A DNA stretch of 41,150 nucleotides from Chlorobiaceae bacterium (GCA_013334925.1 JAAXWP010000021.1:1-41150); one strand, 5' to 3'; positions 3,601 through 41,150 are shown, counted from the stretch's first letter. The notes: generated by a model not told the origin, from the sequence alone. Translations and numbers: made by a program.

Positions 3601-5091
3601 TCACCACTCCTTGAACCCTTTCGTGGTGCCCATGAGCTTTTCGTTGATCGCAGCCGCTGCTTTTCGTCCGGCTCCCATGGCAAGGATGACCGTCGCGCCT
3701 CCCGTGACGATGTCCCCGCCGGCATAGACATTTTCCTTCGATGTCTCCATGGTGTTGATATCCACGACGATGGTCTCTTTTTTGCTCACCTCGATGTCCG
3801 GCGTGGTCTGCTTGATGAGCGGGTTTGAGCCGTTGCCGATGGAGATGACCGCCATGTCGATCGGAATCACGAACTCGGAGCCCTGTACGGGAACCGGTTT
3901 ACGTCGTCCTGACTCATCGGGTTCGCCAAGCTCCATCATCTGACAGCGAACACCGGTCAGCCGGGCCTGTTCGTCGCCGATGAACTCGAGCGGTACGGTG
4001 AGCAGCTGGAACTCGACACCCTCTTTCTGGGCGTGATGGATCTCCTCCTCACGTGCCGGCATTTCTGCTTCCGAACGACGGTAGACGATGTAGGCGTGTT
4101 CGGCGCCAAGGCGTTTGGCCGTACGGACAGCGTCCATGGCCGTGTTGCCGCCACCGAAAACCGCCACGCTCTTTCCTTTGCAGTCGAACACCGGCGTGTC
4201 GCTCCGGGGGAAATCGTACGCTTTCATAAGGTTGACCCTGGTAAGGAACTCGTTGGCCGCCAGAACGCCCACGAGATTTTCGCCGGGAATACCCATGAAC
4301 CAGGGCAGGCCTGCGCCGACCCCGATGAATACGGCATCGAACTCCTCCTCTTCCATCAGTTCGTCGATGGTGATGGTTCGACCAACCACCACGTCGGTCC
4401 TGAACTCGATACCCATTCTCCGAAGACCATCGAGTTCGTCCCTGACGATCTCCTTCGGGAGCCTGAACTCAGGAATTCCATACATGAGCACACCGCCAAG
4501 TTCATGCAGGGCTTCGAATACGACCACTTTGTGGCCGAACTGGGCGAGATCGTTGGCACAGCTCAGGCCTGCCGGACCGCTGCCGACAACGGCCACTTTC
4601 CTGCCGGTCGAAGGTGCGATTGCCGGATCGACGCGCTGGCCGGTGAGGCGCTCATAGTCGCCGACGAAACGTTCGAGGTTGCCGATGGCCACCGGTTCGC
4701 GTTTCTTGCCGATGACGCAGACTTTTTCGCACTGGTCCTCCTGGGGGCACACCCTGCCGCATATCGCGGGGAGCACGTTGTCCTCCTTTACCTTTCTGGC
4801 GGCACCAAGGAAATCACCCTCGGCGATCAGCCTGATGAACTGGTCGATCTTGATATTGACCGGGCAACCCTGGATGCATACCGGATCCTTGCACTGGATG
4901 CAGCGGAGCGCTTCCATCTGCGCCAGTTCAGGAGTCAGGCCGAGATGCACTTCCTGGAAGTTGTTGATGCGGAGCGTCGGGTCCTGGGCTGGCATTACCT
5001 GACGCGGTATGGCAAGGCGTTCTTTGGTCGTTATGGTTCTCGGGTCCATGTTATTGTGGCAGTTTAGCTGTGGTACCTGTTTCGATGACAA
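3601..5091 (-). CDS. nfnB: NfnB/SudA-type FAD and 4Fe-4S NAD(P)H oxidoreductase (GltD-like)
   Basis: This is the large subunit of an NfnAB/SudAB-type complex, often annotated as the small subunit of glutamate synthase. The N-terminal domain has two cysteine clusters for 4Fe-4S centres (CIQCKDPVCIQGCPVNI and CGRVCPQEDQCEKVC). It is followed by an FAD Rossmann motif VVGSGPAGLSCA near residue 168 and a second dinucleotide motif VFGGGNTAMDAVRTA near residue 310. The length (496) fits the family. With NfnA it would exchange electrons between ferredoxin, NADH and NADP+, or act as a sulfide dehydrogenase; sequence alone cannot decide. The start is uncertain: a TTG at 5091 has a purine-rich site GGGGGAAGG close by, while an ATG at 5049 (MDPRTITTKERL) has none. 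nfnA lies just upstream and nikR just downstream. Confidence 0.9.
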   Translation of the reverse strand: MSSKQVPQLNCHNNMDPRTITTKERLAIPRQVMPAQDPTLRINNFQEVHLGLTPELAQMEALRCIQCKDPVCIQGCPVNIKIDQFIRLIAEGDFLGAARKVKEDNVLPAICGRVCPQEDQCEKVCVIGKKREPVAIGNLERFVGDYERLTGQRVDPAIAPSTGRKVAVVGSGPAGLSCANDLAQFGHKVVVFEALHELGGVLMYGIPEFRLPKEIVRDELDGLRRMGIEFRTDVVVGRTITIDELMEEEEFDAVFIGVGAGLPWFMGIPGENLVGVLAANEFLTRVNLMKAYDFPRSDTPVFDCKGKSVAVFGGGNTAMDAVRTAKRLGAEHAYIVYRRSEAEMPAREEEIHHAQKEGVEFQLLTVPLEFIGDEQARLTGVRCQMMELGEPDESGRRKPVPVQGSEFVIPIDMAVISIGNGSNPLIKQTTPDIEVSKKETIVVDINTMETSKENVYAGGDIVTGGATVILAMGAGRKAAAAINEKLMGTTKGFKEW

Positions 5092-5166
5092 TGCCTTCCC
5101 CCGAACTCCCTTGAAGGGGAGTCATGAAGGTAGCTATTTCCCTGAAAATGTGCGAGTGTGCCGGGA

Positions 5167-6012
5167 TTACATCTGCGCGGACAGCCTGCACTGATGTGCG
5201 TGGGCTTCGTCCGACTCCTTTTCCTCTTTCTGATAGATCCTGTTTCTGTCGGCAAGGTTCTTGAAATCGACCTGATGAGCGTCGAATTCCGGACCATCAA
5301 CACAGGCGAACCTGATTTCGTTGCCTACCGTGACCCGGCATCCGCCGCACATGCCCGTACCGTCGATCATGATGGGATTCAGGCTGACCATCGTTTTGAT
5401 GCCGTATGGGCGGGTCACTTCGGCGACGGCCTTCATCATCGGAATCGGACCGATGGCGAGCACGAAATCGATTTTTCTGCCGGAGTCGATCAGCTCCTGG
5501 AGTTTCTGCGTCACGAATCCGTTGAATCCGTAGGATCCGTCGTCAGTCGTGATGTAGGCTTCGTCGCTGACTGCCTTCATCTCCTCTTCGAGAATCACCA
5601 GATCTCTGGTTCGTGCGCCATTGATCGTGATGACATAGTTGCCGGCTGCCTTGAGCGCAGCGGCTGTCGGATAGGCAATGGCCGTGCCGACACCGCCGCC
5701 GATGCTGACGGCTGTTCCGAAATTCTCGATGTGGGAAGGAGTTCCCAGAGGCCCGACGACGTCGGTGATCATGTCTCCGGCTTCCATCCTGTTCAGCGCG
5801 CGGGTCGATTTGCCGGCACCCTGTGCGATGATGGTGATGGTTCCCTTTTCAGGATCGGAATCGGCAATGGTCAGCGGAAATCGCTCTCCGTTTTCCTCGA
5901 GCCGAAGCATGACGAACTGTCCTGCTTTTCGCTTTTTTGCGATCCTCGGGGCCTCTATTTCGAATTTTTTGATATTTTCAGCTAAAAAAATAGCGGACAC
6001 AATCCTGTACAT
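5167..6012 (-). CDS. nfnA: NfnA/SudB-type ferredoxin-NADP reductase subunit
   Basis: This is the partner of NfnB. The 281-residue protein has a ferredoxin-reductase fold. An FAD-binding part comes first (RFPLTIADSD near residue 47), then a nucleotide-binding motif GGGVGTAIAYP near residue 107. A C-terminal 2Fe-2S segment MCGGCRVTVG ... FACVDGPEF is typical of NfnA and of the electron-transfer subunit of dihydroorotate dehydrogenase. The pairing with an NfnB gene 75 bases downstream excludes the pyrimidine role. I chose the ATG at 6012 (MYRIVSAIFLAE) because the family begins there; an in-frame ATG at 6063 would add 17 residues. A 21-bp palindrome lies 65-85 bases upstream. Confidence 0.9.
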   Translation of the reverse strand: MYRIVSAIFLAENIKKFEIEAPRIAKKRKAGQFVMLRLEENGERFPLTIADSDPEKGTITIIAQGAGKSTRALNRMEAGDMITDVVGPLGTPSHIENFGTAVSIGGGVGTAIAYPTAAALKAAGNYVITINGARTRDLVILEEEMKAVSDEAYITTDDGSYGFNGFVTQKLQELIDSGRKIDFVLAIGPIPMMKAVAEVTRPYGIKTMVSLNPIMIDGTGMCGGCRVTVGNEIRFACVDGPEFDAHQVDFKNLADRNRIYQKEEKESDEAHAHQCRLSAQM

Positions 6013-6077
6013 TGTTTCTCGGATTTCTGTGGTATGTGGATTGGAATGACTTTCAGGAAGCAAGGTAGAAGCGAAAG

Positions 6078-6098
6078 CCGTATTCTTTCATAATACGG
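6078..6098. promoter_or_regulatory. Perfect 7-7-7 palindrome between nfnA and hisH
   Basis: CCGTATT, seven bases, then AATACGG form a perfect inverted repeat in the 189-bp divergent region between nfnA (minus) and hisH (plus). On the minus strand the left part reads CCGTATTATG, so a possible -10 (TATTAT) for nfnA would overlap the palindrome. The size and spacing equal those of the palindromes before the metal-uptake operon and before rrf2. It is a candidate operator; the regulator is unknown. Confidence 0.4.
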
Positions 6099-6201
6099 TT
6101 TGAACTTCTTAATTAAAAGAATGGTTGTCGCTTTTTTGAGGACCAGAAACTGAATTTCAGCGTTTTTGGTACGATTCAGGAATGATTTTAATCTGTTTTT
6201 C

Positions 6202-6810
6202 ATGGTATTCATCGCTGACTACGGAGCAGGTAACCTTCGATCGGTTCAGAAAGCTTTCGATTATCTCGGAATAAAAGCGGTCGTCAGCGATCGCGCATCC
6301 GAGGTGAACGGATACGAGAAGGTGCTCATTCCCGGCGTGGGAGCGTTCGGTCCGGCGATGGAAGCTCTTGACCGGCTCGGGTTTTCCGATGCGATCAGAG
6401 AGCATGTAGACAAGGGCCGCCAGGTTCTCGGTATCTGCCTCGGCATGCAGCTGTTCCTGAACGGCAGCGAGGAGATGGGGGCTCATGCAGGTCTCGGCCT
6501 GATTCCGGGCAAGGTTCTGCATTTCAGAAGCGACACCGACAAGATCCCGCAGATCGGCTGGAACTCCGCGGATCACTGCAAGAAGGATTCCGTGCTGTTC
6601 CGTAACATTCCGGACCACTCATGGTTCTACTTCGTGCACTCCTTCTATTGCCATCCCGAAGAGCCCGAAAGCATCGCCGCGACCACCTATTTCGCGGGAA
6701 AAAATTTTTGCTCGGCCATTGAAAAAAATGGTATTTTCGCTGTACAGTTCCACCCCGAAAAGAGCTCCGAAGCGGGCCTTCAGGTCCTCAGAAATTTCGC
6801 GGAGTGCTAA
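6202..6810 (+). CDS. hisH: Imidazole glycerol phosphate synthase glutaminase subunit HisH
   Basis: HisH releases ammonia from glutamine and feeds it to HisF in histidine biosynthesis. The 202-residue protein is a class I glutamine amidotransferase. It starts FIADYGAGNLRSV, has the oxyanion segment IPGVGAFGPAM and the nucleophile Cys79 in LGICLGMQLF, and carries His184 and Glu186 in VQFHPEKSS. All three catalytic residues are present. I chose the ATG at 6202 because it begins the conserved first strand; a longer frame upstream adds only unrelated residues. hisA follows 21 bases after the stop, so the two are probably one operon. HisF is not in the window. Confidence 0.96.
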   Translation: MVFIADYGAGNLRSVQKAFDYLGIKAVVSDRASEVNGYEKVLIPGVGAFGPAMEALDRLGFSDAIREHVDKGRQVLGICLGMQLFLNGSEEMGAHAGLGLIPGKVLHFRSDTDKIPQIGWNSADHCKKDSVLFRNIPDHSWFYFVHSFYCHPEEPESIAATTYFAGKNFCSAIEKNGIFAVQFHPEKSSEAGLQVLRNFAEC

Positions 6811-6831
6811 GTTGTTTACCCGTTTATCCCT

Positions 6832-7620
6832 ATGCTGATCATCCCTGCTATAGATATTAAGGAAGGAAAGTGCGTCAGACTCACTCGTGGTGATTTCGCC
6901 CAGAAGAAGATCTATCTCGACAATCCCAGCGACATGGCGGTCATCTGGCGGAAGCAGAATGCCAAAATGCTGCACGTTGTCGATCTTGACGCTGCGTTGA
7001 CCGGTGAAATGGTCAACTTTGAGAAAATTCGTGAAATCGTCGGCATACTCGACATTCCGATTCAGGTCGGCGGCGGTATCCGCTCGGCAGAGGCGGTCCG
7101 GAAATATCTCGAGATCGGTGTCAGCCGCGTGGTCATTGGATCCGCAGCGGTCACCAATCCCGGCCTTGTCGCCGAACTGCTCAAAAAGTATCGTCCTTCG
7201 CAGATCGTCGTCGGCATCGATGCCGAAAACGGCGTGCCAAAGATCAAAGGCTGGACCGAGAGCAGCGACATGAAGGATTACGAACTTGCCCTCGAGATGA
7301 AAAAGCTCGGTGTCGAGCGGGTCATCTATACCGACATCACCCGCGACGGTATGCTGCAGGGTATCGGTTACGAAACGACCAGGGCCTTCGCTGAAAAGGC
7401 CGGCATGAAGGTGACCGCGTCCGGCGGTGTTTCCAGTTCGGAGGACCTGCACAAACTCAGGTCTCTCGAAAAGTTCGGCGTCGATTCAGTGATTATCGGC
7501 AAGGCGCTCTACGAGTGCAATTTCCCCTGCCAGGAGCTCTGGTACGCTTATGAACAGGGGCTCGGCATCGACGGTGAGTTTTCCACGGCCCGCAAGAAGG
7601 AGTGTTTTCCTCAGGCGTGA
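6832..7620 (+). CDS. hisA: ProFAR isomerase HisA
   Basis: HisA converts ProFAR to PRFAR by an Amadori rearrangement in histidine synthesis. The 262-residue TIM barrel starts MLIIPAIDIKEGKCVRL with catalytic Asp8. It has the phosphate-binding motifs VGGGIRS (near residue 80) and SGGVSS, and the second acidic residue Asp130 in VVGIDAEN. The stretch VIYTDITRDG is typical of HisA rather than HisF, which needs ammonia channelling residues not seen here. The C-terminus is about 15 residues longer than in many homologues. The stop overlaps a likely GTG start of scpB by four bases. Confidence 0.96.
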   Translation: MLIIPAIDIKEGKCVRLTRGDFAQKKIYLDNPSDMAVIWRKQNAKMLHVVDLDAALTGEMVNFEKIREIVGILDIPIQVGGGIRSAEAVRKYLEIGVSRVVIGSAAVTNPGLVAELLKKYRPSQIVVGIDAENGVPKIKGWTESSDMKDYELALEMKKLGVERVIYTDITRDGMLQGIGYETTRAFAEKAGMKVTASGGVSSSEDLHKLRSLEKFGVDSVIIGKALYECNFPCQELWYAYEQGLGIDGEFSTARKKECFPQA

Positions 7621-22872: not shown

Positions 22873-22985
22873 TCTGTTACGCAACACGATTACTGTGTTG
22901 GTCGGTGCTCGAAATCCTCATGTACCTGGTGTACACTCCGGTTTCTGTGCTCCGTCCGCCTTGTACTCGGGTTGCTCACGACGAT
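22873..22985 (+). repeat. 113-bp dispersed intergenic element, copy 2
   Basis: This is the same length and largely the same sequence as copies at 17086 and 35075. The inner stem TGTAC-N5-GTACA has loop CTGGT here. A second inverted repeat, CAACAC-N7-GTGTTG, is perfect in this copy (22882-22900). It lies upstream of smc, pointing away from it, in the 257-bp gap between smc and folP. Nothing else was recognised in that gap. Confidence 0.9.
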
Positions 22986-25740: not shown

Positions 25741-26655
25741 TCAGGATACAGGGCTGTCGTGGTTGACCAGAAGCATGCTCATCGGCCATGATTCACTGAC
25801 CGCATACCGATCATGGCCAGTGGCGATCCGGGCAATGATGCCGAGTTCCAGTTCGCTGTAGAATTTTCTTGCCGAGGTGAACCCGTCGCCCGTGAAGGAC
25901 GCGATGCCCTGCAGGCTGGCGACGAGCGGCACTCCGGCGAGCAGCAGCATGCTTCTGAGGCCATCGAGACCGATGAAGGCCGTGGCGCCGTGTTCTGCGG
26001 ACCTTGCGATCATCAGGGCGAGCTGTCCGGGAGTGAAATGGTGCAGGCTTTGGGAGATGATCACCAGGTCGATCGAGTTTTTTTCGATTGAGGCGAAATC
26101 GAAGGCGTTCATGACCCTGAACCGAACCGGAAGTTTGCGTTCGGAGGCTGCCCGGTTTCCTTCGTCGATGGTCTCTGGAACAATGTCCGTAGCCGTGATG
26201 TCGATATCGATGCCATGGTGAAGGGCATGTCCGGCAAGGGCGAACGAAAGGCCTCCGGAACCGGCAGCCAGTTCGAGAATCCTGACCGGGCCCTCTCTTC
26301 GTGACGAAGTTTCCCTGATCAGAGGTTCGAGCAGGTCGATCTGGTGGCGGTAGGCGAGCGTCATGTCATTCATCCGGTCCAGTGCCCGGATCAGCGCAAG
26401 TTTTTCCTTGCCGCTGGTCGAGGCTTCATCCATGTGTTCCTGTTCCCGGCTCCGTACCGTCCTGTCGAGGAGTTCATAGAGCAGGAACCCCGGGCCAAGC
26501 TCATTTGATGCCCTGAAGCGCTCTTCCATGAAGCGCTGCATGAAACGGTCGGTGACGGCATCGATTTCCTCGATGCCGGAAACGTGCGGAGGAAATTCAC
26601 CGCTCTTTCGGAGACGGTCGAGCGCGAGATAACCGGCTGTTCTGAGCTGGAGCAT
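25741..26655 (-). CDS. Class I SAM-dependent methyltransferase
   Basis: The 304-residue protein has the SAM-binding motif [17 protein letters not shown] near residue 125, an acidic residue after strand 2 ([10 protein letters not shown]), and the later motif [15 protein letters not shown]. This is the pattern of class I methyltransferases. The first 110 residues are helical and not recognised. The substrate cannot be read from the sequence. A related pattern occurs in ubiquinone/menaquinone-type enzymes, but no substrate evidence supports that. It lies 95 bases upstream of the haem-binding gene on the same strand. Confidence 0.82.
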
Positions 26656-26749
26656 GATCGTTACAGTTTTGATGGAGCAGGGTGGGGGTTGAAAGTGGTT
26701 ATCAATCCGACCAAAGAAATTCGAAAAGAAATTTCGGAGACTGGCCTGT

Positions 26750-26860
26750 AATTCTGAATGAAGCGAAGCGGAGTGAAGCGGAGTGAAGAATCCATCTTAT
26801 TGAAATAGAGAGAGTTCTGGATTTTTCTCCCGGCAAGTCGGAATCAGAATGACATCAGTA
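26750..26860. repeat. Decayed intergenic repeat in the 402-bp gap before rrf2
   Basis: The gap 26656-27057 holds no gene I can support. It contains a short tandem duplication (GCGGAGTGAA repeated at 26768-26787). This sits within a segment beginning ATTCTGAATGAAGCGAAGCGG and, after about 70 bases, ending CGGAATCAGAATGACATC. Sequences of this kind, where an AGAATGACA motif faces its complement, are common intergenic repeats in bacteria. Further right are AT-rich DNA and the rrf2 promoter. Confidence 0.45.
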
Positions 26861-27009
26861 TCAACCATTATTCCGCCAATGATTGATCCCTTTGGTGGCC
26901 GCACAAACAACAACAACAATATAGCGTCTGCGGTTTTCCTGACGAAAAATCGAAGCCGGCGAGAAGATCCGTATTTTTTTGTGGTACAGGGGAATTTTAT
27001 CGAATCATT

Positions 27010-27045
27010 TTGAATTTTAACTAACTGATACTAAATTGGTATCAG
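27010..27045 (+). promoter_or_regulatory. Promoter and palindromic operator of the rrf2-hcp cluster
   Basis: A perfect inverted repeat CTGATAC-N7-GTATCAG lies at 27025-27045, just 12 bases before the rrf2 ATG. A possible -35 TTGAAT at 27010-27015 and a weak -10 TAAATT at 27032-27037 are 16 bases apart, so the palindrome would straddle the -10 region. The position fits autorepression by the Rrf2 protein encoded immediately downstream, as is usual for IscR/NsrR-type regulators. Confidence 0.6.
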
Positions 27046-27057
27046 AAATTGACAACC

Positions 27058-27504
27058 ATGAAAGTTCTGAACAAACATACCGACTACGCCGTGCGGGCCC
27101 TGATCGCCCTTGGCATGAAACCCGGAAGCAGGATCTCGGCCAAGACCCTGTCCGAGGAGCAGGGAATTCCTTACCAGTTCCTGCGCAGGATCCTGCAGGA
27201 GCTTATCAGGAACGGCCTGGTCTCCTCGAAAGAGGGCGCTGGCGGCGGCGTTGCGCTGGCCAGGGACCCCGATGAGATCAGGGTTCGCGATGTGATCGAA
27301 ATCTTCCAGGGGAGTGTGCAGGTCTCCGAGTGCATGTTCCGCAAACAGCTGTGTTCGAATCGGGCAAACTGTGTGCTGCGTCACGAAATCATGCGTATCG
27401 AGCGCATGGTGAACGACGAGTTCGCAAAGGTGACCGTCGGCAAGCTGATCGCGGACCTGAAGCGGGTGGAAGAGGCGAGGGCCGGAGTGCAGGTTCAGGA
27501 GTAA
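27058..27504 (+). CDS. Rrf2-family iron-sulfur transcriptional regulator
   Basis: The 148-residue protein has an N-terminal winged helix (NKHTDYAVRALIALG ... QGIPYQFLRRILQELIRNGLV ... GAGGGVALARDP) typical of the Rrf2 family. It has three cysteines, Cys92, Cys99 and Cys105, placed like the cluster ligands of IscR and NsrR (C-x6-C-x5-C here). It therefore probably binds a Fe-S cluster and senses NO, oxygen or iron-sulfur status. It heads the cluster rrf2, ferredoxin, TPR, hcp, which makes nitrosative stress the leading idea. ATG 27058 is used; a TTG nine bases upstream is less likely. Confidence 0.9.
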   Translation: MKVLNKHTDYAVRALIALGMKPGSRISAKTLSEEQGIPYQFLRRILQELIRNGLVSSKEGAGGGVALARDPDEIRVRDVIEIFQGSVQVSECMFRKQLCSNRANCVLRHEIMRIERMVNDEFAKVTVGKLIADLKRVEEARAGVQVQE

Positions 27505-35074: not shown

Positions 35075-35187
35075 GCTGTTCCGCGACCCGATTGCTGCGT
35101 TGGGCGGTGCTCAAAATCCTCATGTACTCCGTGTACACTCCGGTTTTTCCGCTCCGTCCGCCTTGCACTCGGGCCGCTCACGACGCT
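35075..35187 (+). repeat. 113-bp dispersed intergenic element, copy 3, ending in a T-run
   Basis: This is the third full copy. The inner stem TGTAC-N5-GTACA has loop TCCGT. Relative to copies 1 and 2, a G in the left arm is A and the matching C in the right arm is T, which keeps the pair. After GCTCACGACGC comes TTTTTT, so this copy may end transcription of the MFS gene. The remaining DNA to the DCC gene (35188-35487) shows only a short GGGCT-TC-AGCCC palindrome at 35319-35330 and no gene. Confidence 0.9.
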
Positions 35188-35487
35188 TTTTTAATACGCC
35201 TGTAATCAGGTAAGGGTAAGTCGTATAATTTCAATAGATGGGTCGTATGTGCTGGATCGAGATTTTATTGCCCCGACATTCAGGCCGAGGGAAGGCATAA
35301 CAAACAATTATAAAGGGCTTCAGCCCAATACTCTTTCGTGATCGGATATTGAAACCTATAGTCTCCGAAGTCATAAGGGCTTCACAGGACCCATGCCTCT
35401 ATTTCTGAATTCGAAATTGCGCTTACCGTACAACGTACCCGAGTTACCTTCCATTGGCTTTGCTCCTGAACGATACCTGGATACCAG

Positions 35488-35919
35488 ATGAACAAGACCT
35501 TAGCCACCCTTCCGGAAAACATCGTCATATTCGACGGTGTCTGCAACCTCTGTGAATTCTCGGTCAATTTCATTTTTGACCATGATACCGCCGGGCAGTT
35601 CTATTTCACTCCGGCCCAGTCTCCTCTCGGTTCATCCTTACTCAGGCGCTTCGGCATCAACACGACGCGCCTTGACACCGTTGTGCTGGTCAGGAATGGC
35701 CAAGCCTTTACCCTAAGTTCCGCTGCCATTGAAATCGCCGCCAAGCTCGACCTGCCGTGGAATCTGCTCACGGTATTCCAGGTTGTTCCTGAACCATTGC
35801 GAGATATGATGTATGACTGGATAGCCCAGAACCGGTATCAGCTGTTCGGGAAAAAAGAGGTGTGCATGCTCCCCTCCGAAGCGCTGCGCAAACGCTTTCT
35901 CGAAGAAATCCCGGAGTAA
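35488..35919 (+). CDS. DCC-family thiol-disulfide oxidoreductase
   Basis: The 143-residue protein begins with [18 protein letters not shown]. Its Asp16, Cys19 and Cys22 form the DxxCxxC signature that names the DCC (YuxK) family, related to thioredoxin folds. The later part has the family stretch [25 protein letters not shown] in outline ([19 protein letters not shown]). The length is normal. No signal peptide is present. It stands alone on the plus strand, and its redox partner is unknown. A fragment of the 113-bp element follows 21 bases after its stop. Confidence 0.92.
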
Positions 35920-35940
35920 CGCGCAACTAGGGATGTTTTT

Positions 35941-36340
35941 CCGTGTACACCGCGGTTTCTTGGCTCCATCCACCTTCCGCTCGGGCCGCTTACGACACTT
36001 TTTCAGGACGCCAGTAATTGGAGTGCGCGTGGGATTAATTTGGTTTTATGGGTCCAATGGGTCGAATAGGTCCAGTAGGTCGAATGGACAACTAAAAGAG
36101 GCCTGTCGCCATCGAAATCGATCCTTCCTCTCGAGCAGCTCACGACGCTTTTTCAGGGTGCCTGCGCTATGGCGTATGGGTCGAATAGGTCCAATAGGAC
36201 GAATGGACAGCCTAAAGACGCCTGCATTATCGAAATCGCTATCGCTATCGAAATCGATTTCTTCTTCTTGGGCCGCTTACGACGCTTTTTAACGGCGTCC
36301 GCGCTATGGCGCATGGGTCGAATAAGACGAATCTCGTCAT
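35941..36340 (+). repeat. Fragment of the 113-bp element followed by three degenerate tandem repeats
   Basis: 35941-36000 matches the right half of the 113-bp element. From there a unit beginning (T/C)ACGAC(A/G)CTTTTT recurs at 35991, 36141 and 36278, about 137-150 bases apart. Each unit carries GGGTCGAATAGGTCC-like runs, and the first two end in ATGGAC before a short spacer. The DNA between is simple-sequence-like (ATCGCTATCG). No gene is supported in 35920-36340. Confidence 0.8.
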
Positions 36341-36704
36341 CGAGATCTTAAAGCCTTCATAAGCCCTATTTTCCCCTGATTTTTATCCCTGCTGTGACGC
36401 CGAAATGATGCCTGGCGTTGTAAAATGACGGTAAATTAAGTACCTATCAATCATGAGTGGTACCGCCCCCCTCATGAATTCCTCCCTAGGCGGCACTTGG
36501 AGCAGTAAAGACATGATACCCCAAGATCGAAGGACTAGCAAACATGCTCAGACCTCATACCCGATTTATAGGGCAGACCCTATCAACATTCCATCTGGCT
36601 TGTTTCCTCTCAGATCAATTGTATTGCGCTTACAGTACAATGTTCCTTAGTTTTCCCGTGCAATAGCCCCAAATATTTTAATAGACACAATAAATTTTAA
36701 AGGA
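36341..36704. other. Non-coding left border of the AT-rich defence island
   Basis: No gene is supported here. Composition changes from mixed to AT-rich toward gajA. A segment at 36624-36655 (ATTGCGCTTACAGTACAATG and the bases after it) is a diverged copy of 35417-35450 (ATTGCGCTTACCGTACAACG and the bases after it). The promoter of gajA should lie in the last 100 bases (TAAATTTTAAAGGAATG), where the ribosome site is very close to the start. Confidence 0.5.
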
Positions 36705-38471
36705 ATGAAATTAGCAAAGGTGAAATTAAAAGGATTTAGAAACTTCAAAGATGCAATAGTAAACTTTGAAATGAAATCACTGGTCATTGGGGCAAATGAT
36801 GTTGGTAAAACAAATCTATTGTGGGCAGTAAGATTGCTTTTGGATAGAAATCTAAATGATTTTGATGTTGAACCAAAGGATTCTGATTTTTATGCGTATG
36901 AAGAGACTAATAATTTTGAGATATATTTATTTTTTGATGATGTTGTGGAGGATTGCGTTGTGTCAAAATTAAAAGGGAAAGTTGGTGATGATGATAAGTT
37001 GTGTTTAGCATATAAAGCATTTCGTGATAAAGATACTAAAGCGAAGTCATATAAGCTTTACGCTGGTGTTTCTGAGTCTGGTTTGGAGGAAATTGAAGAT
37101 AGATATTATCGGAAGGTTATAAATATTCAATATATAAGCAGTAGGAGAGATTTTCAAAGTTATATAAACCGAGAGAAGAACTATTTGTTCCAATTTGCAA
37201 AACAAAATCGAGATGAAAAAGAGGTGCAGGATGATGATGTATTGTTTGGTGAGATTCAGAGGGATTTAAAAGAAATAGATGAGAAAATACCTAAATTAAA
37301 CTTTATTGCAAGTGCCACAAAATCATTAAATGAGGAGCTGGTTAACCTGTCGTTACATCATAAAAAACAATCAATTGTATTTGATACAAATGCATCAAAT
37401 ATTGATAATTTTATAAATAGTGTGACAATAGCATCAAGAAGTAATGGGGAAAATGTAAGGATCGGTGGGGATGGTAGATTAAATCAAATATATCTTGCGC
37501 TTTGGGCTTCAAAAAATGAATTGAAAGAGGAAAAGATTGAGGAAGTAACGATTGTTGGTATTGAAGAGCCTGAAGCCCATCTTCATCCACATCAGCAGAG
37601 AAAACTTGCGGAATACTTAAATAAGACAATTAAAGGGCAGGTAATACTGACATCTCATTCTCCACAAATTACTTGTGAGTTTAATCCAAATTCAATTATA
37701 AGATTGTATTCTAAAAAGGGAGCCACAAATGCTGCATCAAATGGTTGTTCTAAAATTATAGATGATGCGTTTGATGATTTTGGCTATAGATTAAGTATAA
37801 TCCCTTCTGAAGCTTTTTTTTCTGATGTTGTCTTTTTAGTTGAAGGGCCTTCAGAAGAGATGTTTTATAAGACACTGGCAAAGCAAATTAATGTTGATTT
37901 AGATCGTCTTAATATAAGCGTACTAATGGTTGATGGTATAGGGTTTAAGGTGTTTATTAAGATATTAAATAGTCTCAATATCGCTTGGGTGTTAAGAACC
38001 GATAATGATATTTTTAAAATTCCTGAAAAAATAGGGTATCGCTATGCAGGTGTTCAACGGTGCGTCAATTACTATCGGGATTATTGTACATATGATCAGG
38101 ATACTGACGATATTATAACGAGGTTTGAGTTGCAGTTATCAAATATTCCTTTAAAACAACCGCTCGCGGTTAATGTTGAGGCCTCTGAGAAAATTATTAA
38201 AGTGCTGCAAAAACATGGTATGTATATATCGAAAATTGATTTAGAAAATGATTTGTATCAGAGTCCTATTAAAGAAGATTTGATGAATTTTTTCCCCAAA
38301 AAGAGTCAAGAGGAGATTGTGGGAGCTATGCAGGATCGAAAAGCTATTTTTATGTATGATTTCTTAAAGAAAGAGAAAACGAAATTGCATAATCTGAAAA
38401 ATGATGATATCGCATTGCCATTAATGCGCTGCGTGAATATTATTGAAAGGTTGCATGATGAAAATAACTGA
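36705..38471 (+). CDS. gajA: Gabija defence protein GajA (ATPase-TOPRIM endonuclease)
   Basis: GajA is the nuclease of the Gabija anti-phage system. The 588-residue protein begins MKLAKVKLKGFRNFKDA and has Walker A GANDVGKT at residues 29-36, and Walker B VGIEEPEAHLHPHQQ near residue 284. The switch histidine is in VILTSHSPQI. The C-terminal TOPRIM domain has its acidic site in VEGPSEEMFYKTLA (near 379-392) and RTDND (431-435). This order defines OLD-family nucleases. The adjoining UvrD-type gene makes it Gabija rather than a solitary OLD protein. Base composition is far more AT-rich than upstream genes, a sign of transfer. The gene overlaps gajB. Confidence 0.93.
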   Translation: MKLAKVKLKGFRNFKDAIVNFEMKSLVIGANDVGKTNLLWAVRLLLDRNLNDFDVEPKDSDFYAYEETNNFEIYLFFDDVVEDCVVSKLKGKVGDDDKLCLAYKAFRDKDTKAKSYKLYAGVSESGLEEIEDRYYRKVINIQYISSRRDFQSYINREKNYLFQFAKQNRDEKEVQDDDVLFGEIQRDLKEIDEKIPKLNFIASATKSLNEELVNLSLHHKKQSIVFDTNASNIDNFINSVTIASRSNGENVRIGGDGRLNQIYLALWASKNELKEEKIEEVTIVGIEEPEAHLHPHQQRKLAEYLNKTIKGQVILTSHSPQITCEFNPNSIIRLYSKKGATNAASNGCSKIIDDAFDDFGYRLSIIPSEAFFSDVVFLVEGPSEEMFYKTLAKQINVDLDRLNISVLMVDGIGFKVFIKILNSLNIAWVLRTDNDIFKIPEKIGYRYAGVQRCVNYYRDYCTYDQDTDDIITRFELQLSNIPLKQPLAVNVEASEKIIKVLQKHGMYISKIDLENDLYQSPIKEDLMNFFPKKSQEEIVGAMQDRKAIFMYDFLKKEKTKLHNLKNDDIALPLMRCVNIIERLHDENN

Positions 38472-40116
38472 ACAACAAGACTTGATTCTTTCGTATGAGG
38501 GGTGTGCTGTGGTTATCGCTTCCCCTGGTAGTGGAAAAACTTTTGTTTTATCAAAAAAAATAAAACAAAACCTAAAGGCTCTTAAGGCGCATGAGGGAGT
38601 TATAGCTATATCGTATACGAATAAGGCGAGTGATGAATTAAGAAACAGAAGTTTGTCGGAAGGTGAGAATCCTATGAGTTCTTTTTTTGGTACCATTGAT
38701 AAGTTTTATATTTCTGAAATTATTGTGCCTTTCGGAAAGCATATATGGGGAATCCCGGAGAATGAGATTGAAATTAAAAAGATTGATAGTTTGCCTGAAG
38801 ATGAAAAATCATTGTTTGATTGGTTCACTAGGGACGTGTCTCTAGATGCGATTCAATACTATCAAATTGATGTTTTTAAGGAGTATTTTAAAAAAGGCCT
38901 TGTTTTCATTGAGGCGATTGGTGTTATGGCTAACTATATATATTCCAATTCCTGTGCATGTAGAAAGTATATAAAAGCGCGGTATAAGTATCTATATATA
39001 GATGAATATCAGGATTCTGGACTATCGCAACATGAACTTTTTTTAAAAATAAAGAATTTGGGCGTGGTTTCTGTGGCTGTAGGGGATTTGAATCAATCTA
39101 TTTATGCGTTTTCTGGAAAAGATTCTAGGTATCTTGATGAGCTGACAAGGAATGCGGAATTTAAGTATTTTGTATTAGATAAAAACCATCGATGTCATTC
39201 GTCAATAATAAATTATTCAAACTATTTGCTTAATCATAAAACAGAATTATTGAGATCTGAAAAAAGTACTGTTTATTTTAGGCGAATAGACGGTTGGGAA
39301 TTAAATGTTTCTGTATGGATTGACCGTAATGTTCCCGAAATATTAAAGGTCTTTAACGTAGAACGCCATAATCAAATAGCGATTTTGACTAGAGGGAACC
39401 GCACGGCTGACTTGATTAATAGAAATTTAAAAACAAGCCATAAGTTGTTTATAGGTAACGATCTTGATAACAACCTTAATGTGTGGTCGGGCATATTTTC
39501 GAATTTATTGTCATATCAAATGGATCCTAAGCGTCGTTTTGTTGATGTGGTAGAGGAGTTTATTTCGTTCGAGAAACTGAGTAGGAGGAAAAAGAATGAA
39601 TTAAATGCATTAAAAAATAGGCTGGGTAGAGATACTGTATATGACAATGAAGTCAAAGGTGAGATGCGTGAAATATTTAAAGAGATCGCAAAAATAATAT
39701 CGCCAAACTCTGAGAATAATGACTCTGTTATATTGCTGGATAAAGTATTACAAAATAGGCAAGAGTTTGAGTCATATAGGCCAGCTGATGATAATGAATT
39801 GAATATAATGACATTACATAAATCAAAGGGACTTGAGTATGATGTGGTAATACATCTTGATTTGCATGAGTGGATTTTGCCAAATAAAAGACCGGGCGTT
39901 AATAATGATTTTAATAATCCTGTTTATGGTGATTATAACCAAGATATTAATCTGCATTATGTTGGTATAACTAGGGCGAGAAAGGCTTGTATTCTAATAT
40001 CTAGCACAAAAAGAACAAATTCTAATAATGAAGTCAGGGTTGGCAGGGATTCGGAATTTTTATGGGTTAATCAGATTGAAAATTTAAGAAATAAACGTTC
40101 TGATGGACGAAATTAA
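38458..40116 (+). CDS. gajB: Gabija defence protein GajB (UvrD-like helicase)
   Basis: GajB is the SF1A helicase-like partner of GajA. The 552-residue protein has Walker A ASPGSGKTFVL (residues 21-31), motif Ia IAISYTNKASDEL and motif II YLYIDEYQDSG. It continues with motif III VAVGDLNQSIYAFSG, motif IV FVLDKNHRC, motif V MTLHKSKGLEYDVV and motif VI HYVGITRARKACI. All are intact. ATG 38458 is chosen because AAAGG lies seven bases upstream; ATG 38455 is also possible. It overlaps gajA by 14 bases, so the two are coupled. The gene is AT-rich like gajA. Confidence 0.93.
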   Translation: MKITEQQDLILSYEGCAVVIASPGSGKTFVLSKKIKQNLKALKAHEGVIAISYTNKASDELRNRSLSEGENPMSSFFGTIDKFYISEIIVPFGKHIWGIPENEIEIKKIDSLPEDEKSLFDWFTRDVSLDAIQYYQIDVFKEYFKKGLVFIEAIGVMANYIYSNSCACRKYIKARYKYLYIDEYQDSGLSQHELFLKIKNLGVVSVAVGDLNQSIYAFSGKDSRYLDELTRNAEFKYFVLDKNHRCHSSIINYSNYLLNHKTELLRSEKSTVYFRRIDGWELNVSVWIDRNVPEILKVFNVERHNQIAILTRGNRTADLINRNLKTSHKLFIGNDLDNNLNVWSGIFSNLLSYQMDPKRRFVDVVEEFISFEKLSRRKKNELNALKNRLGRDTVYDNEVKGEMREIFKEIAKIISPNSENNDSVILLDKVLQNRQEFESYRPADDNELNIMTLHKSKGLEYDVVIHLDLHEWILPNKRPGVNNDFNNPVYGDYNQDINLHYVGITRARKACILISSTKRTNSNNEVRVGRDSEFLWVNQIENLRNKRSDGRN

Positions 40117-40153: not shown

Positions 40154-40279
40154 AATCAAGAAAGGAGCAGAGGGACGGTATTTACTTCATGCACTTGATA
40201 GGGCAGATGTCCAGAATTCATCTGAAAATGTTATTCTGTTGAAAGAGCGAAAAACCACAAGCCTCAACTGCAGCCCCCA

Positions 40280-40957
40280 ATGCCCAGAGGCCCCCGACTT
40301 GACGCACCCGGAACCCTGCATCATGTAATTGTCAGGGGAATAGAGAAAGGCCTTGTTGTCCAGGACGATGAGGATCGATCGGAATTTCTGTTACGAATGG
40401 GCCGATTGAGCAAGACGTGCCCGACGTCGATCTATGCCTGGGCAATCATGTCGAATCATATCCATATCCTGCTGAAAAGCGGCCCTGAGGGACTGAGTCG
40501 TTTTATGCGAAAACTCCTCACCGGCTACGCCATACGTTACAATCGACGTCACCGGCGATGCGGCCACCTGTTTCAGAATCGTTATAAGTCCATAATCTGT
40601 CAGGAGTCGGCCTATTTTCACCGGCTGGTGAGTTACATCCACCTCAATCCGTTACGAGCCGGTCTTGTATCGAGTCTCGAAGAGCTGGACCACTACGCGT
40701 GGAGTGGTCATTCAGTACTCATGAACCATCAGCATAACGAATGGCAGGAACGCGATTTTGTGCTGTCACAATTCGGTCGTACAGAGAAAACAGCTGTTCA
40801 GCAATACCGGGAATTCATAGAATCGGAAAGCTGTAAGGGGCATCAACCGGATTTGGTTGGTGGTGGTTTGATTCGCTCCCTGGGCGGCTGGTTTGAAGTC
40901 AGGACCCATTACCGAAAAGATGAAAAACAGGCATTTGATGAAAGGGGCGCAGAGTGA
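40280..40957 (+). CDS. REP-associated tyrosine transposase (RAYT, IS200/Y1 type), probably C-terminally shortened
   Basis: Y1 transposases nick DNA through a tyrosine and move or spread hairpin-flanked sequences. The 225-residue protein begins MPRGPRLDAPGTLHHVIVRG. It has the HUH pair His60 and His62 in MSNHIHILLKSGPEGL, then GHLFQNRYKSI and the catalytic Tyr region SAYFHRLVSYIHLNPLRAGL. The tail LVGGGLIRSLGGWFEVR is typical of the longer members of this group, which as I recall continue about 80-100 residues further. Here the frame ends DERGAE exactly where the second unit begins, so the duplication probably trimmed it. GC content matches the chromosome rather than the Gabija island. Confidence 0.88.
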   Translation: MPRGPRLDAPGTLHHVIVRGIEKGLVVQDDEDRSEFLLRMGRLSKTCPTSIYAWAIMSNHIHILLKSGPEGLSRFMRKLLTGYAIRYNRRHRRCGHLFQNRYKSIICQESAYFHRLVSYIHLNPLRAGLVSSLEELDHYAWSGHSVLMNHQHNEWQERDFVLSQFGRTEKTAVQQYREFIESESCKGHQPDLVGGGLIRSLGGWFEVRTHYRKDEKQAFDERGAE

Positions 40958-41061
40958 CGCTATTTACTTCATGCACATGATAGGGCAGTTGTCCAGAATT
41001 CATCTGAAAATGTTATTCTGTTGAAAGAGCGAAAAACCACAAGCCTCAACTGCAGCCCCCC

Positions 41062-41150
41062 ATGCCCAGAGGCCCTCGACTTGACGCACCCGGAACCCTG
41101 CATCATGTAATTGTCAGGGGAATAGAGAAAGGCCTTGTTGTCCAGGACGA
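41062..41150 (+). CDS. Second RAYT transposase copy (partial, cut by window edge)
   Basis: This is the start of a second open frame, MPRGPRLDAPGTLHHVIVRG and nine further residues, identical in protein to the first copy over the visible length. It begins 782 bases after the first start. Whether it is full length cannot be seen. It may be the original intact copy from which the shortened one derives. Confidence 0.85.
   Translation, partial: MPRGPRLDAPGTLHHVIVRGIEKGLVVQD

Follow-up and report, generated by a model that had tools for sequence, protein, structure and literature searches.

The type system of Gabija, that of Bacillus cereus VD045 (PDB 8tk0, 8j4t, 8sm3 and others), consists of adjacent genes for an OLD ATPase-TOPRIM nuclease (GajA, 578 aa) and a UvrD-like helicase (GajB, about 494 aa). 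GajA introduces nicks into DNA, and nucleotides restrain it; the B. cereus GajA mutants K35A, H320A, E379A, D511A and K541A were tested, and the last three abolished cleavage (PMC8136825). The D432/D434 pair of the same protein was added by a later structure paper (PMC10781630), and two reports describe GajA and GajB as forming one large complex (PMC10822852; PMC10781630). According to a proposal in a 2025 preprint, the attack is licensed by phage DNA ends from which RecBCD is kept away, and genome circularisation is blocked (PMC12407980). Among green sulfur bacteria, a chromosomal defence hotspot at which different systems take each other's place was described in Prosthecochloris; it is bounded by acetyltransferase and methyltransferase genes, and the paper makes no mention of Gabija (PMC10158934). 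Our literature search returned no paper naming both Chlorobaculum and Gabija.

The DNA analysed here, called the window below, is a stretch of 41,150 nt from a Chlorobiaceae bacterium (GCA_013334925.1, JAAXWP010000021.1:1-41150). The host genome encodes the FMO bacteriochlorophyll a protein (PF02327), which scored 767 bits against the FMO chain of PDB 3bsd, presumably the Chlorobaculum tepidum protein. The host was thus taken to be a Chlorobaculum-type green sulfur bacterium, in agreement with the original prediction, which had named a probable green sulfur bacterium from the DNA alone. There is little doubt that the window carries an intact Gabija operon, which was gained horizontally, most likely from Bacteroidota, and which lies in a recurrent landing spot of Gabija.

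Both genes had been predicted to be complete, and both were found as intact ORFs on the plus strand within 36705-40116. The gajA gene (36705-38471) encodes a protein of 588 aa with an OLD-family ABC ATPase domain followed by an OLD-like TOPRIM nuclease (AAA_15, then OLD-like_TOPRIM in Pfam), which is the domain order of Gabija. Adjacent to it, as in other Gabija systems, gajB (38458-40116) encodes a UvrD/Rep-like SF1 helicase of 552 aa with the Pfam domains UvrD-helicase and UvrD_C. The mechanical ORF of gajB comprises 557 aa with a TTG start at 38443. Judging from the sequence, translation more likely starts at one of the two ATGs at 38455/38458, which lie behind GAAAGG. With the ATG at 38458 the overlap between gajA and gajB is 14 bp (14–17 bp depending on the ATG chosen), so the genes do overlap as predicted.

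GajA matched the PADLOC profile PDLC00066 with an E-value of 1.1e-223 (residues 1-581, profile positions 1-564 of 567), and GajB matched PDLC00123 with an E-value of 5.4e-188 (residues 5-551, profile positions 2-538 of 540). The top PDB sequence matches, obtained with phmmer, were B. cereus VD045 GajA (127 bits) and B. cereus VD045 GajB (112 bits), respectively. The overall similarity to the type system is low; the window pair belongs to the PDLC00066/PDLC00123 subfamily, and its GajB is about 60 aa longer. The catalytic residues of the type system are all conserved. K35, H320, E379, D511 and K541 of B. cereus GajA correspond to K35, H318, E380, D512 and K546 of the window protein, and the DxD pair D432/D434 corresponds to D433/D435. 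In an alignment of 11 homologues all of these residues were invariant, indicating that the nuclease active site (E380, D433/D435, D512 and K546) is intact. GajB has kept the Walker A motif PGSGKT (GSGKT) and the motifs DEYQD, GDLNQSIY, HKSKGLEYD and VGITRAR.

The class of OLD nucleases that have UvrD/Rep partners is broad, and the window pair also matched AriA, Old and PtuA, though weakly. It was therefore considered whether the pair might be a class 2 OLD nuclease with a Rep-like helicase outside Gabija, serving as a DNA-repair pair or in another OLD-based defence and merely resembling Gabija. Such an assignment is highly improbable, because GajA scored 742 bits over its full length against its Gabija profile compared with 98 bits for AriA and 87 bits for Old, GajB scored 624 bits over its full length compared with 137 bits for RTasHel, and the B. 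cereus proteins ranked first for both partners. PADLOC, the PDB sequence matches and the catalytic residues all agree with the predicted Gabija identity. By its sequence, gajAB is a correctly named member of the already known Gabija system, and the system itself is not new.

All domains and residues needed for the Gabija mechanism are present in the sequence of the window pair. By analogy with characterised Gabija systems, the two genes would be expressed in this host, and GajA, as an ATPase-regulated TOPRIM nuclease, would assemble with GajB, as a UvrD-like helicase, into one complex with anti-phage activity. The GajA-GajB complex would remain inactive as long as nucleotide levels are normal or DNA ends are occupied by end-processing enzymes of the host, and it would nick or cut the DNA that a phage injects.

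As predicted, the pair was far more AT-rich than the other genes of the window. The GC contents of gajA and gajB were 0.324 and 0.334, with GC3 values of 0.267 and 0.293, whereas GC contents of 0.54–0.62 and GC3 values of 0.50–0.81 were obtained for the window's other long ORFs (n = 29). This amounts to ∼33% GC for the pair versus about 58% for the remaining genes of the window. In codon usage, gajA and gajB were at a distance of 0.28–0.29 from the pool of native genes, compared with a mean of 0.077 and a maximum of 0.097 for native genes longer than 900 bp. GC, GC3 and codon usage of the pair were thus all outside the native range, and the compositional check proposed with the original prediction ended in a strong difference between the pair and the remainder of the window. 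On the left side, the GC content changed abruptly at about 36.62–36.70 kb. Mild GC dips to 0.50–0.54 were also observed at 5501-7500 and 26001-27500 of the window, which elsewhere has 56–60% GC.

When genome contigs were scanned with GajA as a single protein, no match was obtained; an alignment-based scan of the contigs gave its relatives. The closest among named genomes were those of Nonlabens xiamenensis (66% identity), Mesonia algae (64%), Flavobacterium zhairuonense (58%) and Chitinophaga costaii (58%), followed by Halanaerobium (53%) and Mucilaginibacter (51%). The Gabija loci of N. xiamenensis and M. algae, which are of the PDLC00066/PDLC00123 type, were the closest systems found. Their GajB proteins are 56% and 59% identical to that of the window, and their gene order and overlap are the same; unlike the window host, both species have natively AT-rich genomes. 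The closest Bacteroidota Gabija loci are themselves mostly AT-rich (26–41% GC). In maximum-likelihood trees, the window proteins nested inside the Flavobacteriaceae/Chitinophaga clade with support of 99/94 for GajA and 97/93 for GajB. Keeping the Bacteroidota together without the window cost 19.0 log-likelihood units for GajA (p-AU of 0.029) and 10.8 log-likelihood units for GajB (p-AU of 0.076, which is above 0.05). GajB of the window type was present in only one of 86 family genomes and absent from the 85 others.

Chlorobiota is the sister phylum to Bacteroidota, so an affinity to Bacteroidota by itself does not prove transfer. The pair could have been inherited vertically within Chlorobiota and lost elsewhere, its low GC being a peculiarity of the locus; the other Gabija lineage of the family is likewise AT-richer (48% GC) than its flanks. 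This is extremely unlikely in view of the single family genome with GajB of this type, the position of the pair inside the Bacteroidota clade and not as a sister to it (by the AU tests above), and the GC content of 33% with an abrupt step at the border. The GajA and GajB trees do not follow the species tree, and the predicted horizontal acquisition was borne out by foreign composition, discordant phylogeny and the restricted occurrence in the family. Horizontal transfer from a Bacteroidota (Flavobacteriia-like) lineage is most likely the source of gajAB, as the sequence comparisons suggest; the nearest sequenced relatives reach only 66% identity. Relatives on plasmids were at most 43% identical. 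The plasmid nucleotide search gave only partial matches (67–79%), so that no recent plasmid donor was visible. There was no evidence of a prophage, and the phage collection gave one full-length GajA match with 40% identity (MT836637.1). This entry (L107) is an unverified gut "bacteriophage" scaffold and is perhaps a plasmid or mobile element that was labelled wrongly.

The original prediction had also described repeats and a transposase as the borders of the acquired segment. On the left side, the neighbouring gene encodes a native DCC1-like thiol-disulfide oxidoreductase (35488-35919, plus strand; PF04134), whose orthologues in four congeners are 79–84% identical. It is followed by a native repeat-rich intergenic stretch (35917-36422) with GGGTCGAATAGGTCC-type and CTCACGACGCTTTTT-type repeats at 35940-36332; related copies were found in the window at 35128-35206 and 22929-22982. 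Between this stretch and gajA lies a native green-sulfur leader (36423-36690, plus strand), which belongs to the ancestral intergenic DNA of the spot. Its segment 36471-36568 showed 76% identity over 98 nt to the leader of an unrelated gajA in a relative (G032), with a local score of 72 compared with a shuffle maximum of 30. A second resemblance of the leader, with 78% identity over 63 nt and a local score of 56 compared with a shuffle maximum of 25, was to the leader of the exonuclease gene in another relative (G031). These resemblances indicate that native sequence extends almost to the gajA start codon and that the foreign DNA sets in immediately ahead of that codon.

It was also considered that the gajA leader could be a recent duplicate of the host's own exonuclease leader, but this was weakened by the observation that the two share only 75% identity over 44 nt. 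The host's own exonuclease leader is 87–93% identical over shared stretches to the exonuclease leaders of congeners. A simple sigma-70 scan of the gajA leader gave one promoter-like site only, which was on the minus strand and at chance level; the terminator scan was likewise at chance level, with no terminator-like site in the leader. No tRNA or Rfam family was detected in the window and no tRNA on contig C100, which argues against integration at a tRNA site.

On the right side, a RAYT gene (REP-associated tyrosine transposase/Y1_Tnp; PF01797) was found at 40280-40957 on the plus strand. This IS200-like copy is 3'-truncated at residue 222, compared with RAYT frames of about 330 aa in relatives, and scored 65.9 bits against NF047646, under the cut-off of 80. 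A second copy begins in 40946-41150 (plus strand, first codon at about 41062) and is cut by the contig end, with its remainder on contig C100. The stretches 40164-40368 and 40946-41150 form a 205-bp direct repeat with 97% identity. A 25-nt REP-like end of the RAYT unit is located at 40172-40196 on the minus strand; it is 96% identical to, and inverted relative to, positions 435-459 of C100, and more copies of it occur on host contigs C4 and C83. Elsewhere in the host genome (G000), at least four further RAYT genes are clustered on contig C59 (20420-43043), and the REP-like 25-nt ends are scattered.

The first 127 bp of C100 (L058) are identical to 40819-40945 of the window and continue the transposase C-terminus. 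Behind RAYT, C100 carries a gene for a PolB-type 3'-5' exonuclease of 275 aa (PF10108), a DUF1003 gene and uvrA. Beyond the window's own copies, no identical transposase stretch was found in the host genome, which supports C66-C100 as the true order. The order is very probably true judging from these sequences, and the join passes through a collapsed RAYT repeat that is split between the two contigs.

The transposase starts 163 bp past gajB and the left repeats lie at least 370 bp ahead of gajA, an arrangement in which gajAB might be cargo of the IS200/RAYT-like transposase with the repeats as its other end. This is very unlikely, and it was rejected on three observations. The ends of the RAYT unit (40172-40196 and C100 435-459) leave gajAB outside; the sequence directly before gajA is the native leader and not a transposon end; and a RAYT relative adjoins the same exonuclease gene in G010, as does a RAYT C-terminal remnant in G017, with no Gabija seen in either. 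The sequence context thus points to RAYT as an older or independent resident and not as the vehicle of gajAB. Of the predicted borders, both the repeats and the transposase are present, but their role as element ends did not hold. The left repeats are native with copies elsewhere in the window, the leader is matched in relatives, and the transposase occupies the equivalent spot in genomes without Gabija.

The comparison of the DCC gene region between strains, which had been proposed as a way to find the empty site, revealed in G007 an equivalent site that has no Gabija, with the gene order MFS, DCC, one small ORF, exonuclease, methyltransferase, two short ORFs and uvrA. In G032, G034 and G002, a Gabija of the PDLC00092/PDLC00130 type is located directly upstream of the PF10108 exonuclease gene. 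It has this position and part of the leader in common with the window pair, but it is only 25–27% identical to the latter, has 48% GC and represents a separate lineage. In G034, which is of another genus, gajA, gajB and the exonuclease gene form an aligned block with 91% nucleotide identity over 4.4 kb that stops at the end of the exonuclease gene. In G002 (L075, reverse complement 4158-5980), gajA of this lineage is divided between two ORFs, and the gajB frame is open; the split gene is apparently a pseudogene, or the result of an assembly error. In G003 (L078, reverse complement about 5876-6010) and G011 (L084, about 5816-5960), ∼140 bp of a gajB 3' end were found upstream of the exonuclease gene, implying that Gabija of the other lineage was deleted there.

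The spot between the MFS/DCC genes and the PolB-type exonuclease gene thus appears to be a recurrent landing spot of Gabija, which two lineages probably reached independently. Arrival was perhaps by recombination through the conserved flanks of the spot. The term "hotspot" is used for the exonuclease neighbourhood in a purely descriptive sense. The spot offers a compact and testable turnover site, since the same gap is occupied, depending on the genome, by either of the two lineages, by a broken copy, by the scars of a deletion or by no Gabija at all. How one defence system is gained and lost can thus be followed inside one bacterial family. What is new here is the mapping of such gains and losses, for two Gabija lineages, to one chromosomal spot of green sulfur bacteria. 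The general idea of a defence hotspot in green sulfur bacteria is not new, having been put forward for another genus (PMC10158934), and the general interest is modest as Gabija is well known. A methyltransferase gene, one of the boundary genes in Prosthecochloris, also adjoins the exonuclease gene in several of the Chlorobaculum genomes compared here.

The PF10108 exonuclease is patchy, being present in 16 of the 86 family genomes. Two unrelated Gabija lineages and two gajB scars lie next to its gene, with which the conserved block in G034 also ends, so the exonuclease might be a functional partner of Gabija in green sulfur bacteria beyond marking the landing spot. An end-processing partner would be conceivable because the specificity of Gabija reportedly depends on enzymes occupying DNA ends (PMC12407980). 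On the other hand, the exonuclease occurs in several genomes that have no Gabija, and at least one other Gabija that looks intact, that of G032 at about 2.277 Mb, is distant from the exonuclease gene. On balance, such a partnership is considered unlikely.

Gabija of other subfamilies was also observed away from the exonuclease spot, at L020 (G032, near 2.277 Mb) and at L023 (G001, contig C39), where gajA is split. HEC-09, another candidate defence gene, was found near the same exonuclease gene in G010. In another genus, genes of 29–31% GC were located directly downstream of the exonuclease gene at L083 8298-10568 (G033) and L198 9170-11937 (G056). These AT-rich genes include one for an HD-CE protein in G033 and one for an OLD-like ATPase in G056, and they are possible candidates for undescribed defence genes.
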